A stretch of 64,000 bases of DNA. It comes from Curvibacter delicatus NBRC 14919. Its GTDB lineage: Bacteria > Pseudomonadota > Gammaproteobacteria > Burkholderiales > Burkholderiaceae_C. The translations under genes and the position numbers were made by a program. The stretch spans positions 1 through 64,000 of the forward strand of contig NZ_BCWP01000020.1 in the NCBI RefSeq assembly GCF_001592265.1, in the 5' to 3' direction. Below the pieces are notes generated by a model, which was not told the DNA's origin, did no database searches, and saw nothing but the letters and a program-made list of their open reading frames with translations. Below, one piece after another: positions 18,868-64,000 of the stretch (position 1 is its first letter; each line of letters opens with the position of its first letter).

Positions 18868-20592
18868 TTATGCGGGCATTGCCCGCTGCAAGATCGCATC
18901 AAAAACCGTTCCCGCCCCCAGGCTGCCAAAGGTATGGCCCCAGTTGCCGGCCAGGCGCGAATCGCAGAAGGCAGCAAACACCTCGGCCGGCGCGCTTTGT
19001 GCCAGCAGTGCCGCCTGTACCGCCAGCGCCACGTCCTGTGCCAGCCGGCGTGCCTCCATCTCACTGGCCATGGCTTCGACCCGGTGCGGCAGGCTGTGTG
19101 CCAGCCGGTCCAGCGCCGGGTGCATGCCGCGCGCCGGGGCTAGTTCCTGTTCCAGCGCGCTGGCGACATCACCCTTGCGCAAGGCGCGCAGCAGGTCCAG
19201 CGCCATGATGTTGCCGGCACCTTCCCAGATCGAATTGACCGGCATTTCGCGGTAGATGCGCGCCATGACGCCCTCACCACCCTCTTCCACATAACCACTG
19301 CCGCCCAGGCACTCCATTGCTTCCTGCGCAAAGTAGCTGCCGCGTTTGCAGATCCAGAACTTGGCAATCGGCGTCAGCAGGCGTGCCATGAGCTGCTCAT
19401 GCGCTTCGCCTTGATGGTCAAATGCGCCTGCAAGCCTCATGGATAATGCGCAAGCCGCTTCACTTTCGATAGCAAGATCAGCCAGCACATTGCGCATCAG
19501 ATCGTGTTCGACCAGGCGCTTGCCGAAGGCCTGGCGCTGGCGCGTGTGGTGCAGCGCCAAGGCCAGTGCCTGGCGCATCAGCCCGCTGGTGCCCAGGGCG
19601 CAGTCAAGCCGGGTCATGGTGCCCATCTCCAGGATCTGCGGCACGCCACGCCCTTCCTCGCCCACCAGCCAGGCGCTGGCCTGCACGAACTCGACTTCGG
19701 AGCTCGCATTGGCCTTGTTGCCCAGCTTGTCCTTCAGGCGCTGGATATACAGGGCGTTGAGCGAGCCGTCCGGCAGCACACGCGGCAGGAAGAAGCAGCT
19801 CAGGCCGGCCGGTGCCTGTGCCAGCACCAGGAAGGCGTCGCACATTGGCGCCGAGAAAAACCATTTGTGGCCTGTGAGCCGGTAACGCTGGCCCCAGGCA
19901 TCGCTGCCGTCCAGCACGGCCTGCGTCGTGTTGGCCCGCACGTCCGAACCACCCTGCTTCTCGGTCATCCCCATGCCCATGGTCACACCGAGCTTCTGCG
20001 TATAGGGTTTGAGCACCGGGTCGTAGGCGCGACTGGTCAGGCGTGGCCCCCACTCGGCATAAATCGCCTCATTGCGGCGCAGCGCGGGCGTGGCCGCGTA
20101 GGTCATGGAGATCGGGCACAGGATGGACGGCTCCAGCTCGGTGAAGAGCATGAAACCCGCCGCGCGCAGCACATGTGGCGCCGGCGTGAGCGCCGACGGG
20201 CCGCCCCTAGGCGCGAAGGCCCCCTCGGGGGGCAGCGAGGACACGCCAGTGCCTAGCGTGGGGGCAACATTCCCGGCCCACGGTGTGCCGTGCAGGCCAG
20301 CATCCACCGCCGCAGTCATCAGTGCGTGGTAGCTCGGATGGAACTCGACCTGGTCGATGCGCCGGCCAGAGCGGTCATGGCTGCGCAGCTGCGGCGTGTG
20401 CACATTGGCCAGCCGCGCATGGGTCTGCATCTCTGCCGTCCCGATCTCGGCGCCAAGCCTACGCAGCGGCGCCGTGTCCAGCTGCGGGGCGTTGAACTTC
20501 AACGCATCCTGCAACGGTGGGTTGGTCTCGAACAGGTTGTAGCCCACCAGCGATTCAGGCTGATTGAAGACCTCGTGCGTCATAACACTCAT
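18868..20592 (-). CDS. aidB: AidB-like acyl-CoA dehydrogenase with repeat-derived insertion
   Basis: A 574-residue flavoprotein of the AidB branch of acyl-CoA dehydrogenases; AidB in E. coli (541 residues) binds DNA and is linked to alkylation protection, while many homologues act in acyl-CoA catabolism. Recognisable blocks are MGMGMTEKQGGSDVRANTTQ, HKWFFSAPMCDAFLVLAQ and the C-terminal MECLGGSGYVEEGGEGVMAR. The start has CAGGAGA upstream. About residues 110-134 (TLGTGVSSLPPEGAFAPRGG) interrupt the usual run from PWAG to PHVLRAAGFMLF. They are encoded by an interspersed repeat whose sister copy is in glnD. The inserted peptide is Pro/Gly-rich and probably forms a surface loop, so the enzyme may still work. 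Confidence 0.9.
   Translation of the reverse strand: MSVMTHEVFNQPESLVGYNLFETNPPLQDALKFNAPQLDTAPLRRLGAEIGTAEMQTHARLANVHTPQLRSHDRSGRRIDQVEFHPSYHALMTAAVDAGLHGTPWAGNVAPTLGTGVSSLPPEGAFAPRGGPSALTPAPHVLRAAGFMLFTELEPSILCPISMTYAATPALRRNEAIYAEWGPRLTSRAYDPVLKPYTQKLGVTMGMGMTEKQGGSDVRANTTQAVLDGSDAWGQRYRLTGHKWFFSAPMCDAFLVLAQAPAGLSCFFLPRVLPDGSLNALYIQRLKDKLGNKANASSEVEFVQASAWLVGEEGRGVPQILEMGTMTRLDCALGTSGLMRQALALALHHTRQRQAFGKRLVEHDLMRNVLADLAIESEAACALSMRLAGAFDHQGEAHEQLMARLLTPIAKFWICKRGSYFAQEAMECLGGSGYVEEGGEGVMARIYREMPVNSIWEGAGNIMALDLLRALRKGDVASALEQELAPARGMHPALDRLAHSLPHRVEAMASEMEARRLAQDVALAVQAALLAQSAPAEVFAAFCDSRLAGNWGHTFGSLGAGTVFDAILQRAMPA
20192..20264 (-). repeat. Interspersed repeat copy inserted in frame in aidB
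   Basis: A 73-bp segment, 63 of 73 positions identical to 52064-52136 in glnD and translated in the same frame in both genes. Its core is a CCCCCCGAGGGGGC inverted repeat. It is related to the intergenic copies at 20609, 22210, 38863 and 63871. Confidence 0.88.
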
Positions 20593-20608: not shown

Positions 20609-20688
20609 GGGCCACCGCGGAACCGGCTATGCCGGGCCGCTGGTGGCGCCCCCTGGTGGGGGTGACGCCGCAGGCGGCGCCGGGGTGG
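20609..20688 (-). repeat. Intergenic copy of the interspersed GC-rich repeat
   Basis: It lies between the MDR oxidoreductase and aidB. It contains GCGGAACCGGCTATGCCGGG, a CCCCCTGGTGGGGG hairpin and a GCCGCAGGCGGC hairpin. It shares the ACCGGC.....GCCGGGCCGCTGG part with the copy at 22210. Confidence 0.75.
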
Positions 20689-22209: not shown

Positions 22210-22302
22210 CGGGAAACGCCGCGGAACCGGCTTCGCCGGGCCGCTGGCGTTGCCCCCTTGAGGGGGGAGGCGGCCACACGCAGTGGGCCCGCAACGGGGG
22301 GG
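22210..22302 (-). repeat. Intergenic copy of the interspersed GC-rich repeat
   Basis: It lies between the SDR at 22312 and the thioesterase. The order GGGAAACGCCG, GGAACCGGCTTCGCCGGGCC, GCGTTGCCCCCTTGAGGGGG, CACACGCAGTG is the reverse complement of the copy at 38863-38968, with few differences. Confidence 0.88.
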
Positions 22303-38862: not shown

Positions 38863-38968
38863 CACCCCCAGGCTGCGCGCACTGCGTGTCGCTCCTCCTC
38901 CCCCCTTGCAGGGGGCAACGCTAGTGGCCCGGCGAAGCCGGTTCCACGGCGTTTCCCGCTGGGACACT
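38863..38968 (+). repeat. Intergenic copy of the interspersed GC-rich repeat
   Basis: It begins CACCCCCAGGCTGCGCGCAC 9 bp after the msrB stop, then a CCCCCCTTGCAGGGGG hairpin and a CCGGCGAAGCCGG hairpin, and ends with GGCGTTTCCCGCTGGG. It is in opposite orientation to the copy at 22210 and is the most complete example in the window. The hairpins could act as a transcript end for selO-msrB. Confidence 0.88.
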
Positions 38969-51225: not shown

Positions 51226-53901
51226 ATGCAAACCATCCAGACCTTGAGAGACCAGTACCGCGCCCGCAAGGCCGAACTGCTGAAGAATGTCACCGAGAGT
51301 GGCGCCTCCACGCGCCATGTGCGCAGCACGCTGCGCCAGTTGGCCCGCCTGGCCGACAGCACGCTCAAGACCCTGTGGAAGCAGGCTGGCTTCGGCCAGC
51401 CCTTTGCCCTGGTTGGCGTCGGCGGCTTCGGCCGCGGCGAACTGTTCCCACATTCCGATATCGACGTGCTCCTGCTGCTGCCCGAAGGACTGTCTCCCGA
51501 CAGCGACGAGGCCCTGCGCCAGCGCATCGAGTCCTTCATCAGCAGTTGCTGGGACGCCGGCCTGGAAATCGGCTCCAGCGTACGGTCCGTATCTGAATGC
51601 CTGGCCGAGGCGGCCAAGGACGTGACGGTGCAGACGGCGTTGCTGGAATCGCGCCTGATTGCCGGCAACACCGAGCTGTTCAAGACCTTCCGCTGGCAGT
51701 TCCGCCAGAGCCTGGACGCGCGCGCCTTTTTTGTCGCCAAGACACTGGAGATGCAGCAGCGCCACAGCAAGTTCGAGGACACCCCCTACTCGCTCGAGCC
51801 GAACTGCAAGGAATCCCCCGGCGGCCTGCGCGACCTGCAGATCATCCTCTGGGTGGCCCAGGCTGCGAGTTACGGCAAGTCCTGGGACGAACTGGCCAAA
51901 TCCGGCCTGGTCACCCCCTTCGAGGTACGCCAGCTCAAACGCAACGAGGCCATGCTGCAGCTCATCCGCATGCGCCTGCACCTGATTGCCGGCCGGCGTG
52001 AAGACCGGCTGGTGTTCGACCTGCAGACCGCGGTGGCCAACACCTTTGGCTACGGACTGCCGGCCCCCACGCTCGGCACTGACGTCTCCACCCTGCCCCC
52101 CGAGGGGGCTGTTCCGCCTCGGGGCGGCCCGTCGGCGAAACGATCAGACACCAACGATGTCCGGACCAAGGTCCGCGCCAGCGAAGCGCTGATGCGCCAC
52201 TACTACTGGGCCGCCAAGGCGGTGGCGCAGCTCAACCAGATCCTGCTGCTCAACATCGAGGAGCGGCTCAACCCCACCGTGCAGCCGCCGCTGCCGATCA
52301 ACGAGCGCTTTGCCGACAAGGCCGGCCTGATCGAGGTGCGCAGCGATGACCTCTACCAGCGTGAGCCGCATGCCATCCTGGAAACCTTCCTGGTCTACCA
52401 GACCACCGAAGGCGCCAAGGGCCTGTCGGCACGCACGCTGCGTGCGCTGTACAACGCGCGCGGCCTGATGGACAGCCGCTTCCGCAAGGACCCGGCCAAC
52501 CAGCAGACCTTCATGCGCATCCTGCAGCAGCCCCAGGGCATCACGCACGCCATGCGCCTGATGAACCAGACCTCGGTGCTGGGGCGCTACCTCTGGACCT
52601 TCCGCCGCATCGTTGGCCAGATGCAGCACGACCTGTTCCACGTCTACACCGTGGACCAGCACATCCTGATGGTGCTGCGCAATGTGCGGCGCTTCTTCAT
52701 GGCCGAGCATGCGCACGAGTACCCGTTCTGTTCGCAACTGGCCGCTGGCTGGGACAAGCCGTGGATCCTGTATGCGGCAGCGCTGTTCCACGACATCGCC
52801 AAGGGCCGTGGCGGCGATCATTCTTCGCTGGGCGCGGTCGAGGTGCGGCACTTCTGCCGCCAGCATGGCATCGCGCGTGATGATGCCCAGCTCATCGAGT
52901 TCCTGGTCAAGGAACACCTCTCGATGAGCCACATTGCGCAGAAGTCCGACCTGACCGACCCGGATGTGATTGCCGCTTTCGCCAAGCAGGTGGGCAGCGA
53001 GCGTTACCTGACGGCGCTCTACCTGCTGACCGTGGCCGACATCCGGGGCACCAGCCCCAAGGTCTGGAATGCCTGGAAAGGCAAGCTGCTGGAAGACCTG
53101 TACCGCTACACCCTGCGCGCCCTGGGCGGCCTGGTCCCCTCACCCGATGCCGAGGTGGAGGCACGCAAGCGTGAGGCGCTGATCCAGCTGGCGCTGCACT
53201 CGCTGCCCTTCGAAGCGCACAAGCCGCTGTGGGACACGCTGGACGTGAGTTACTTCATGCGCCACGACGCGGCCGACATCGCCTGGCACACGCGGCAGCT
53301 GTCACGCCATGTCGGCTCTGACAAGCCCATCGTGCGGGCCCGCCGCTCCCCGGTGGGCGAAGGGCTGCAGGTGCTGGTCTACGCCAAGGACCAGCCCGAC
53401 CTGTTTGCCCGCATCTGCGGCTATTTCGACCACGCCGGCTTCAGCATCCTCGACGCCCGCATCCACACCGCGCGCAACAACTATGCGCTCGACACCTTCC
53501 AGATCGTCACGTCCGCCATGCCCGACCACTACCGCGAACTGACCAACATGGTGGAGGCAGAACTGGCTCGCACCATCATGGAAGGCGGTCCGCTGCCCGC
53601 ACCCAGCCGTGGCCGCCAGTCGCGACGCGTCAAGAGTTTTCCCTTCATGCCGCGCGTCAGCCTCCGGCCGGACGAAAAAGCCCAACGCTGGCTGCTCAGC
53701 ATCACCGCCAGCGACCAGACCGGCCTGCTGTACAAAGTGGCACGCGTGCTGGCGCAGCACGGGATCAACCTGCAGCTGGCCAAGGTCAACACCCTCGGTG
53801 AACGCGTGGACGACAGCTTCCTGATCTGCGGCCAAGCCCTGCAGAACAACCGGGCGCAGCTGGAAATCGAGACGGAACTGCTGGACGTGCTGTCGTCATA
53901 A
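51226..53901 (+). CDS. glnD: Bifunctional PII uridylyltransferase/uridylyl-removing enzyme GlnD with repeat-derived insertion
   Basis: An 891-residue nitrogen sensor that uridylylates and deuridylylates PII. The nucleotidyltransferase motif [20 protein letters not shown] is near residue 65. A GlnE/GlnD helical linker follows; the HD domain is near 520 ([14 protein letters not shown]), and two ACT domains occupy the C-terminal 180 residues ([20 protein letters not shown]). Between FGYG and [17 protein letters not shown] lies an extra stretch, about residues 281-310, whose first 24 residues ([20 protein letters not shown]) are encoded by a 73-bp interspersed repeat related to that in aidB. The frame is kept and the rest is intact, so the enzyme is probably functional. 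Confidence 0.94.
52064..52136 (+). repeat. Interspersed repeat copy inserted in frame in glnD
   Basis: 73 bp, the same length and reading frame as the copy in aidB (20192-20264), 63 of 73 positions identical. The core inverted repeat CCCCCCGAGGGGGC is unchanged. Confidence 0.88.
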
Positions 53902-53999
53902 AGCACCCGCGCTCCCAATGCGGGTGGTTTGCAGTCCTCCAAGGAGACCCTCGCGACTTGGAATGACCCAGCGGCGCTCAATCGCTCCAAGGCGAGAAC

Positions 54000-63037: not shown

Positions 63038-63862
63038 ATGAGCCAACAACTGCAACAGATCATCGACACCGCGTGGGAAGACCGCGCCAACATCTCCCCG
63101 AAGTCCGCCCCGAAAGAAGTGGCCGACGCGGTTGAGCACGTCATCACCGAACTCAATGGTGGGCGCCTGCGCGTAGCCAGCCGCGCCGGCGTGGGCCAGT
63201 GGACCGTGCATCAGTGGATCAAGAAAGCGGTGCTGCTGTCCTTCCGCCTGAAGGACAACGAGGTCATCAAGGCCGGCGACCTGGGCTTTTACGACAAGGT
63301 GCAGACCAAGTTCGCCCACCTGACGGAAGAAGAGATGAAGGCCAGCGGCGTGCGTGTGGTGCCGCCGGCCGTGGCGCGCCGCGGCAGCTACATTGCCAAG
63401 GGCGCCATCCTGATGCCGTCCTACGTCAACATCGGTGCCTACGTTGATGAAGGCACCATGGTCGATACCTGGGCCACCGTCGGTTCCTGCGCGCAGGTCG
63501 GCAAGAACGTGCACCTGTCCGGCGGCGTCGGCCTGGGCGGCGTGCTGGAGCCGCTGCAAGCCAACCCGACCATCATCGAAGACAACTGCTTCATCGGTGC
63601 GCGCTCCGAGATCGTCGAAGGCGTGATCGTGGAAGAGAACTCGGTCATCTCCATGGGCGTGTACATCGGCCAGAGCACCCCGATCTACGACCGAAGCACC
63701 GGCGAAGTGAGCTACGGCCGCGTGCCGGCCGGCTCGGTGGTGATCAGCGGCAGCCTGCCCAAGGACGGAGGCAAGTACAGCCTGTACGCCGCCATCATCG
63801 TCAAGCGCGTCGATGCACAGACCCGTGCCAAGACCAGCTTGAACGATTTGCTGCGGGATTGA
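63038..63862 (+). CDS. dapD: Tetrahydrodipicolinate N-succinyltransferase
   Basis: A 274-residue trimeric enzyme using succinyl-CoA. A helical N-terminal domain (about 1-100) is followed by left-handed beta-helix hexapeptide repeats (about 105-245: [30 protein letters not shown] and [19 protein letters not shown]). The end [16 protein letters not shown] is standard. The ATG at 63038 gives the usual start [17 protein letters not shown]. Confidence 0.96.
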
Positions 63863-63870
63863 ATGTTGCA

Positions 63871-64000
63871 CACCCCCAGGCTACGCGCACTGCGTGTCGC
63901 TTCGCCAGACAGGCCCGCGCCAGAGGCTGTGGCTCTTCGGCCTGTCCGACCCTGCGCAGGCAGGCTCGGAGCCGCAGGCCTCAGCCCCTTGCAGGGGGCA
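63871..64000 (+). repeat. Intergenic copy of the interspersed repeat, split and cut by the window edge
   Basis: It begins CACCCCCAGGCTACGCGCAC as at 38863. About 75 bp of other GC-rich sequence (with CGGCCTGTC and GCCAGACAGGCC inverted pieces) then separates this from the CCCCTTGCAGGGGGCA part at the window end. It is either a longer variant of the element or one carrying an insertion. Confidence 0.7.

Follow-up and report, generated by a model that had tools for sequence, protein, structure and literature searches.

Short palindromic repeats lying in frame inside genes are best known from the intracellular Rickettsia, whose Rickettsia palindromic elements (RPEs) are said to go back to work by Ogata and colleagues in 2000. 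In the available parts of two sources, RPEs measure 105-146 or about 150 bp and form long stem-loops (PMC2229807, PMC10969869). Intragenic palindromic repeats are also known outside Rickettsia, namely the GTAG/CGTC REPs, hairpins of 20-40 bp with a tetranucleotide tag (Di Nocera et al., 2013; PMC3733652, in part); the available main text of that paper holds none of the terms Polaromonas, Acidovorax, Variovorax, Delftia and Burkholderia. Among MITE-like repeats such as ERIC/RU and NEMIS, terminal inverted repeats are found in most, and target duplications in several (Delihas, 2007, PMC2759123; PMC2229807; both in part). Closest to the present case is the Beta-proteobacterial repeat element, BRE, which the accessible sections of one paper (Hot et al., 2011; PMC3110155) describe as 75-91 bp long (about 90 bp) with 69% G+C. 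BREs occur there in Betaproteobacteria including many Comamonadaceae, with most copies (29) in a Polaromonas strain; they can stand in tandem with none or few bases between them, and some copies lie 'entirely within coding sequences'. According to the same sections they are found in chromosomal DNA only, which is an observation on 12 genomes and not a definition.

The DNA considered here, called the window, is a stretch of 64,000 nucleotides from Curvibacter delicatus NBRC 14919. It holds a repeat that is very probably a BRE, placed in frame within glnD downstream of the nucleotidyltransferase part. The features are as follows.

51226..53901, + strand: glnD, encoding the bifunctional uridylyltransferase / uridylyl-removing enzyme and bearing the insert (open reading frame, Pfam, 80 relatives)
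52055..52141, + strand: insertion of about 87 bp relative to glnD of Curvibacter sp. PD_MW3, 29 residues, about 277-305 (pairwise alignment with the PD_MW3 locus, L022, and protein alignment)
52062..52145, + strand: BRE-like repeat in sense orientation, read in the LPPEG frame (profile match, E 1e-16; frame analysis)
52075..52089, + strand: hairpin A of the repeat, of the type NN-CAC-loop-GTG-T-N'N', partly decayed in this copy (family covariation; position read by hand)
52095..52109, + strand: hairpin B, GCCCCCCGAGGGGGC, strongly conserved (low entropy across 109 copies)
52111..52141, + strand: hairpin C, with arms 52111-52118 and 52134-52141 around a conserved core, 52119-52133 (arms variable, tending to be complementary across the family)
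53903..53978, + strand: probable degenerate copy of the element directly 3' of the glnD stop codon (weak profile match, E 1.4e-4)
20187..20266, - strand: second in-frame copy, within aidB and sense relative to it, read in the LPPEG frame (profile match, E 1.5e-13; aidB is 81 bp longer than its relative's)

GlnD is encoded by a single open reading frame of 891 amino acids from the ATG at 51226, and the frame stays open through the insert. Pfam matches on the segment L001:617-3100 were GlnD_UR_UTase (1.7e-38) and HD (9.9e-7). The closest GlnD, that of Curvibacter sp. PD_MW3, is identical at 93% in one comparison and 95% in another, and pairwise alignment set 191 nt of the window against 104 nt of PD_MW3 across the compared stretch. 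The insert ends at 52055 and 52141 were placed by hand, with an error of a base or two, and the aligned 3' end of the insertion is the end of the 3' hairpin. At the same site the two nearest GlnDs, L022 and L023, read N[T/S]FGYSSDT[T/A]...[A/S]LMR with no insert; by sequence comparison, the glnD segment is an insertion absent from these relatives. In the AlphaFold model of GlnD, residues 280-314 have pLDDT below 50 (30-32 in ten-residue blocks) and are flanked by helices at 264-274 and 318-348, which suggests that the insert, presumably translated, occupies a loop predicted to be disordered. A comparison of GlnD with solved structures returned no chain at E 0.001.

A first-pass annotation of this DNA had reported a repeat in glnD that keeps the reading frame and recurs in aidB. 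All of this was borne out: positions 52063-52137 are an inverted match to 20191-20265 in aidB, 87% identical over 75 nt. Its estimate of 73 bp and about 24 residues, a length not divisible by three, has to be replaced by the 87 bp and 29 residues measured against L022, which is a multiple of three. It had also taken GlnD relatives to lack such a segment; this is true of most GlnDs seen, including L022 and L023, so the segment is not universal in the family, but 5 of 78 relatives do carry the element. The intergenic sequence of the window that it had read as a longer form of the element belongs to a different repeat of related appearance, on whose occurrences at 20615-20662, 22210-22267 and 38901-38958 the element profile had no match at E 0.01. 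This second interspersed type, also partly present at 63860-63906, consists of CCCCCTTGnAGGGGG-like and GGCCCGGCGAAGCCGG hairpins. Intergenic copies of the BRE-like element are present elsewhere in the genome, outside the window.

A search of the whole genome, as that annotation had proposed (3.76 Mb in 108 contigs), found 18 copies of the element at E<0.01, which excludes chance resemblance; three further matches of 17-21 nt are probably due to chance. Nine of the 18 lie inside genes, and all nine host open reading frames have Pfam domains, on which their gene names rest. Besides glnD, we traced the sites of the 17 remaining copies to their orthologous positions in PD_MW3 and aligned them. 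All nine in-gene sites are empty in PD_MW3, and all nine length differences are multiples of three: 87 bp in GlnD, 84 in RibF, 81 in AidB, 99 in MoeA, 69 in UvrA, 90 in an FAD oxidase/CCG protein, and 84 each in an M16 peptidase, an ABC transporter and a rubredoxin-reductase protein. Among the nine remaining copies, L013 is shared with PD_MW3, L018 and part of L006 look shared, and five (L004, L008, L011, L016 and L017) have no such element at their PD_MW3 counterparts. At the last, L007, PD_MW3 carries a different repeat within the same gap, of the second (CCCCCTTGnAGGGGG/GGCCCGGCGAAGCCGG) type, where C. delicatus has the BRE type.

To follow the family further, a profile built from 11 copies of this genome was run on loci fetched from other genomes. 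It gave 155 matches, from which we removed seven duplicates and one edge match to leave a census of 147 copies. A search of 12 genomes, each located by way of a named GlnD record, had returned 218 matches, of which 30 were taken as loci and 78 as stretches with near full-length matches preferred, so that the census is not a complete count. According to a codon model trained on the GlnD genes of the fetched relatives and applied to the flanks only, 43 of the 147 copies lie in frame inside genes. The copy in the rubredoxin-reductase protein (L015, an N-terminal insert in the APSGGS frame) is in-gene by Pfam and by alignment with PD_MW3, and stands outside these 43. All 29 further census host reading frames that were scanned have Pfam matches, although the domain matched in several of them is confined to a single side of the insert (for example L133, L207, L211 and L219); the hosts so identified include FtsY, a Mur ligase, RecG, RecJ, threonine synthase, PEP carboxylase and phosphoglucomutase. 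All 12 genomes match at E 0.01; three from Polaromonas gave 27, 44 and 44 matches, and one from Rhodoferax gave the highest number, 46. Across the order, 20 of 250 genomes match at E 1e-6 (three candidates scored per genome). Seven of 72,556 plasmid records match, some of them very large replicons (two from Variovorax and one each from Acidovorax, Paraburkholderia, Burkholderia, Azoarcus and Rhodoferax), with no Bordetella among the matching records. Tandem copies occur at L254, L257, L260, L261, L164 and L194. The profile match extends over 79-115 positions (mean 84.6), and the mean G+C of full-length copies is 0.72.

On these grounds the family is very probably the BRE and hence not new, the match being one of description (size, composition, hosts, tandem habit); the annotation's statement that it knew of no description for the family, copies in coding sequences included, very probably does not hold. 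Set beside the accessible description of BREs, 75-91 bp compares with a profile mean of 84.6 and site differences of 69-99 bp, and 69% G+C with 72%. Both sets are rich in Polaromonas (29 copies there; 27, 44 and 44 here) and include tandem and in-gene copies (43 of 147 in the census, 9 of 18 in C. delicatus). The two differ in that our highest count, 46, is in Rhodoferax, in that seven plasmid records match here against chromosomal DNA only there, and in that the frame choice, empty-site test and hairpin covariation reported here are absent from the BRE description in those sections.

The comparison with RPEs that the annotation had drawn is apt, since both systems place short palindromic repeats in frame in unrelated conserved genes, but the sequence and the bacterial class are different, and the element here is about 85 bp long with three hairpins and a comamonadacean host. 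With the intragenic REPs, as far as the available text goes, the element shares a place inside genes, many of them for DNA repair (uvrA in both, recG and recJ here); those REPs are the shorter, tagged hairpins. In our element the composition of the left flanks, the end at which we looked, showed no GTAG or CGTC tag. MITE-like repeats are likewise small and non-autonomous, and several are described in the sections available as having open frames fused to genes, whereas target duplications are not general here. An Rfam scan of six loci found nothing on the element and two weak sub-threshold matches elsewhere in L005. The observations extend in-frame palindromic repeats from intracellular Rickettsia to Comamonadaceae with genomes of 3-6 Mb, and supply many separate cases in core enzymes with clean empty sites.

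The reading we favor, at a probability of about 0.82, is that a mobile, structured repeat of BRE type has its gene copies filtered by selection for harmless linkers, and that the glnD copy is one recent insertion. The repeat, which forms three hairpins in about 80-90 bp and encodes no separate gene, would move or be copied to new places in the genome, and would often land at junctions that are AT-rich and ATGG-like. In about 90% or more of copies, four of the six frames contain no stop codon. A carrier with the element inside a gene would survive only when the insertion adds a multiple of three nucleotides and the 25-30 extra residues form a harmless, near-neutral linker rich in Pro, Gly, Ala, Ser and Thr, best placed in an exposed loop; the repeat would in this way act as a portable linker. 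The glnD copy would be a recent insertion of such a linker into a predicted disordered loop between two helices. Movement appears to be active or recent.

As to what moves the element, the copies could be REP-like elements mobilized by a RAYT-like Y1 transposase of these genomes, an idea that we consider somewhat unlikely. All 13 genomes searched contain a match to the Y1 transposase in an open frame of 231-261 amino acids, and the hairpin design would suit such a mover. So would the junctions: a word of at least 6 nt was shared across the element in 10 of 105 copies, within the range of shuffled sequences (mean 6.5, maximum 14), indicating no general target-site duplication. The absence of target duplication is expected of single-strand transposition. 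Unlike REPs that accompany a RAYT, however, no copy of the element lay within 1.5 kb of the 10 RAYT-like Y1 genes fetched (one match is near L243, a different Y1), and the gene is present also where the repeat is nearly absent, in G009 and G012 with a single match each. Acidovorax temperans DSM 7270 (G006) has 37 Y1 matches against 1-6 in the other twelve genomes, most of identical score, as if copies of one insertion sequence. At L146:1480-1600 a single clear direct repeat of 12-13 nt flanks an element, and the outer hairpin arm overlaps the second unit of this repeat.

In-gene copies are read in strongly preferred frames. All 16 sense copies use the LPPEG frame and 23 of the 27 antisense copies the APSGGS frame (three use the second frame and one the third), giving 39 of 43; the exceptions are L010, L038, L044 and L157, two of which are in GlnD. 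The numbers of stop-free frames over 134 copies were 127 (S0), 121 (S1), 75 (S2), 124 (A0), 63 (A1) and 120 (A2). Because the unused S1 and the little-used A2 are nearly as open as the used frames (127 and 124), stop codons do not explain the choice. In a held-out set that leaves out the C. delicatus genome and GlnD, the sources of the frame hypothesis, 10 of 10 sense and 19 of 20 antisense copies (29 of 30) were in the preferred frames, with p = 9e-5 and 4e-7, respectively, against frames weighted by openness; a stricter antisense set (n = 15) gave p = 3e-5. The census cases are not wholly independent, as some host genes recur among the counted copies. For the 93 copies lying elsewhere than in frame within a gene, translation in either of the two used frames would yield the peptides with the fewest basic residues and the highest share of Pro, Gly, Ser, Ala and Thr, and the remaining frames are richer in Arg/Lys or Cys. 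Selection against damaging peptides is the probable cause of the frame choice.

The choice could instead be a product of the insertion mechanism, if the element preferred a target word ATG|G in a fixed codon phase. Left flanks are indeed enriched for A/T and ATGG (58 of 147 copies, those with an exact CCCCCAC anchor), and in an APH-family kinase gene of two genomes (L146 and L265) the element sits behind the same codons, an in-frame Met included, and is read as LPPEG; the corresponding site of the other five genomes examined is empty or holds a shorter stretch. Such an origin is nonetheless quite improbable. By eye, Met directly precedes the element peptide in only 3 of the 16 sense in-frame copies, L024 has its ATG out of phase yet uses the LPPEG frame, and sense and antisense copies place the left junction in different codon phases. 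Under selection for harmless linkers, counting the frames used would show directly which ready-made peptides folded proteins tolerate, an otherwise abstract question of protein evolution. The annotation's suggestion that a repeat can seed new peptide loops stands as sequence history, any usefulness of the loops being hypothetical.

GlnD has received the element repeatedly. We fetched 80 GlnD relatives, of which 78 were readable (L056 and L089 were dropped because the wrong frame had been picked), and the five carriers among them have the element in the same loop as the GlnD of the window, a loop whose length varies naturally across relatives. Three (L024, L029 and L030) have it in the orientation of the window and two, L038 and L044 from Polaromonas, in reverse. 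On a FastTree phylogeny of 73 rows, with the loop columns removed and six further rows dropped, the six carriers (window included) need six changes, and the Polaromonas clade alone contains sense, reversed and empty states, which marks the loop as a tolerant place that has taken the element repeatedly; the disorder predicted by AlphaFold agrees with this. That the segment is instead an ancestral loop lost many times, its likeness to the repeat maintained by DNA exchange between copies (gene conversion), is very improbable despite the variable loop length and the scatter of carriers on the tree, given that the closest relatives L022 and L023 lack it, that both orientations occur within Polaromonas with six changes for six carriers, and that the sites of the eight other in-gene copies are empty too. 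The APH-family kinase gene described above is likewise a place with repeated insertion. In other hosts, the M16 peptidase and methylcrotonyl-CoA carboxylase alpha genes each have an insert at or near one place in two genomes, and UvrA has inserts at three different places in three genomes. Three records titled Pantoea, Desulfovibrionaceae and Alphaproteobacteria (L081, L099 and L100) contain a GlnD 65-67% identical to that of the window and are possibly mislabelled or mixed; the first groups with Comamonas on the tree.

The element has three hairpins, A to C, two of which covary. In the 120 of 147 copies that fit the search pattern for the inner stem of hairpin A, each of the two bases on one side of that stem complements its partner on the other side in 92% and 90% of cases; shuffling the partners lowers these values to 38% and 44%. 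The pair types vary widely (GT/AC 37, GC/GC 17, GG/CC 16, CC/GG 14, CT/AG 8, TT/AA 7). The arms of hairpin C are strongly variable beyond the first position, and their complementarity within copies, 0.88, 0.81, 0.44 and 0.50 in four genomes against shuffle means of 0.59, 0.46, 0.29 and 0.31, exceeds all of 1000 shuffles in each genome. At least seven of the eight pairs form in a fixed register in 52 of 102 copies, and some of the others look paired only with a bulge. Pairing is kept equally in in-gene copies (0.69) and other copies (0.66). Folding energies of six strands from five copies were modestly better than those of shuffled sequences (z from -1.15 to -3.14).

The arms of hairpin C carry some memory and change much faster than the body. 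Three copies in one genome (L024, L173 and L178) are identical over 61 body and core positions, yet L024 departs from L173 and from L178 at four of the eight positions in either arm, with every one of them paired. In well-paired copies the arm difference is 2.5 of 8 positions at 0-1 body differences and about 3.5 from four differences on. Slow compensation, one position at a time, does not easily explain such arms, and copying of one arm from the other would. The stems might be rewritten jointly at or after each move, with new DNA setting one arm of the 3' hairpin and fold-back synthesis copying the other, so that copies with unchanged cores carry different, paired stems; this specific proposal we regard as unlikely. 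Were it true, the element would be a mobile hairpin that adjusts itself and, in addition, provides proteins with near-neutral linkers, and paired but changing stems in any case offer a route into how such repeats move. We also considered whether the outer hairpin arm is target DNA, which by eye fits L010 and perhaps L009 and L012 and does not fit the rest, and we do not claim it. As far as our searches show, both the strong frame choice and the varying yet complementary stems are new for this repeat: the literature search, with subscription papers mostly outside its coverage, returned no report of either.

One further array combines tandem and in-frame placement. At L260:2011-2247, in a genome of the same taxonomic order, three tandem units of the element, 26 residues each, lie in frame inside an AMP-binding (acyl-CoA synthetase-like) open reading frame, and the array is read in the APxGGS frame.
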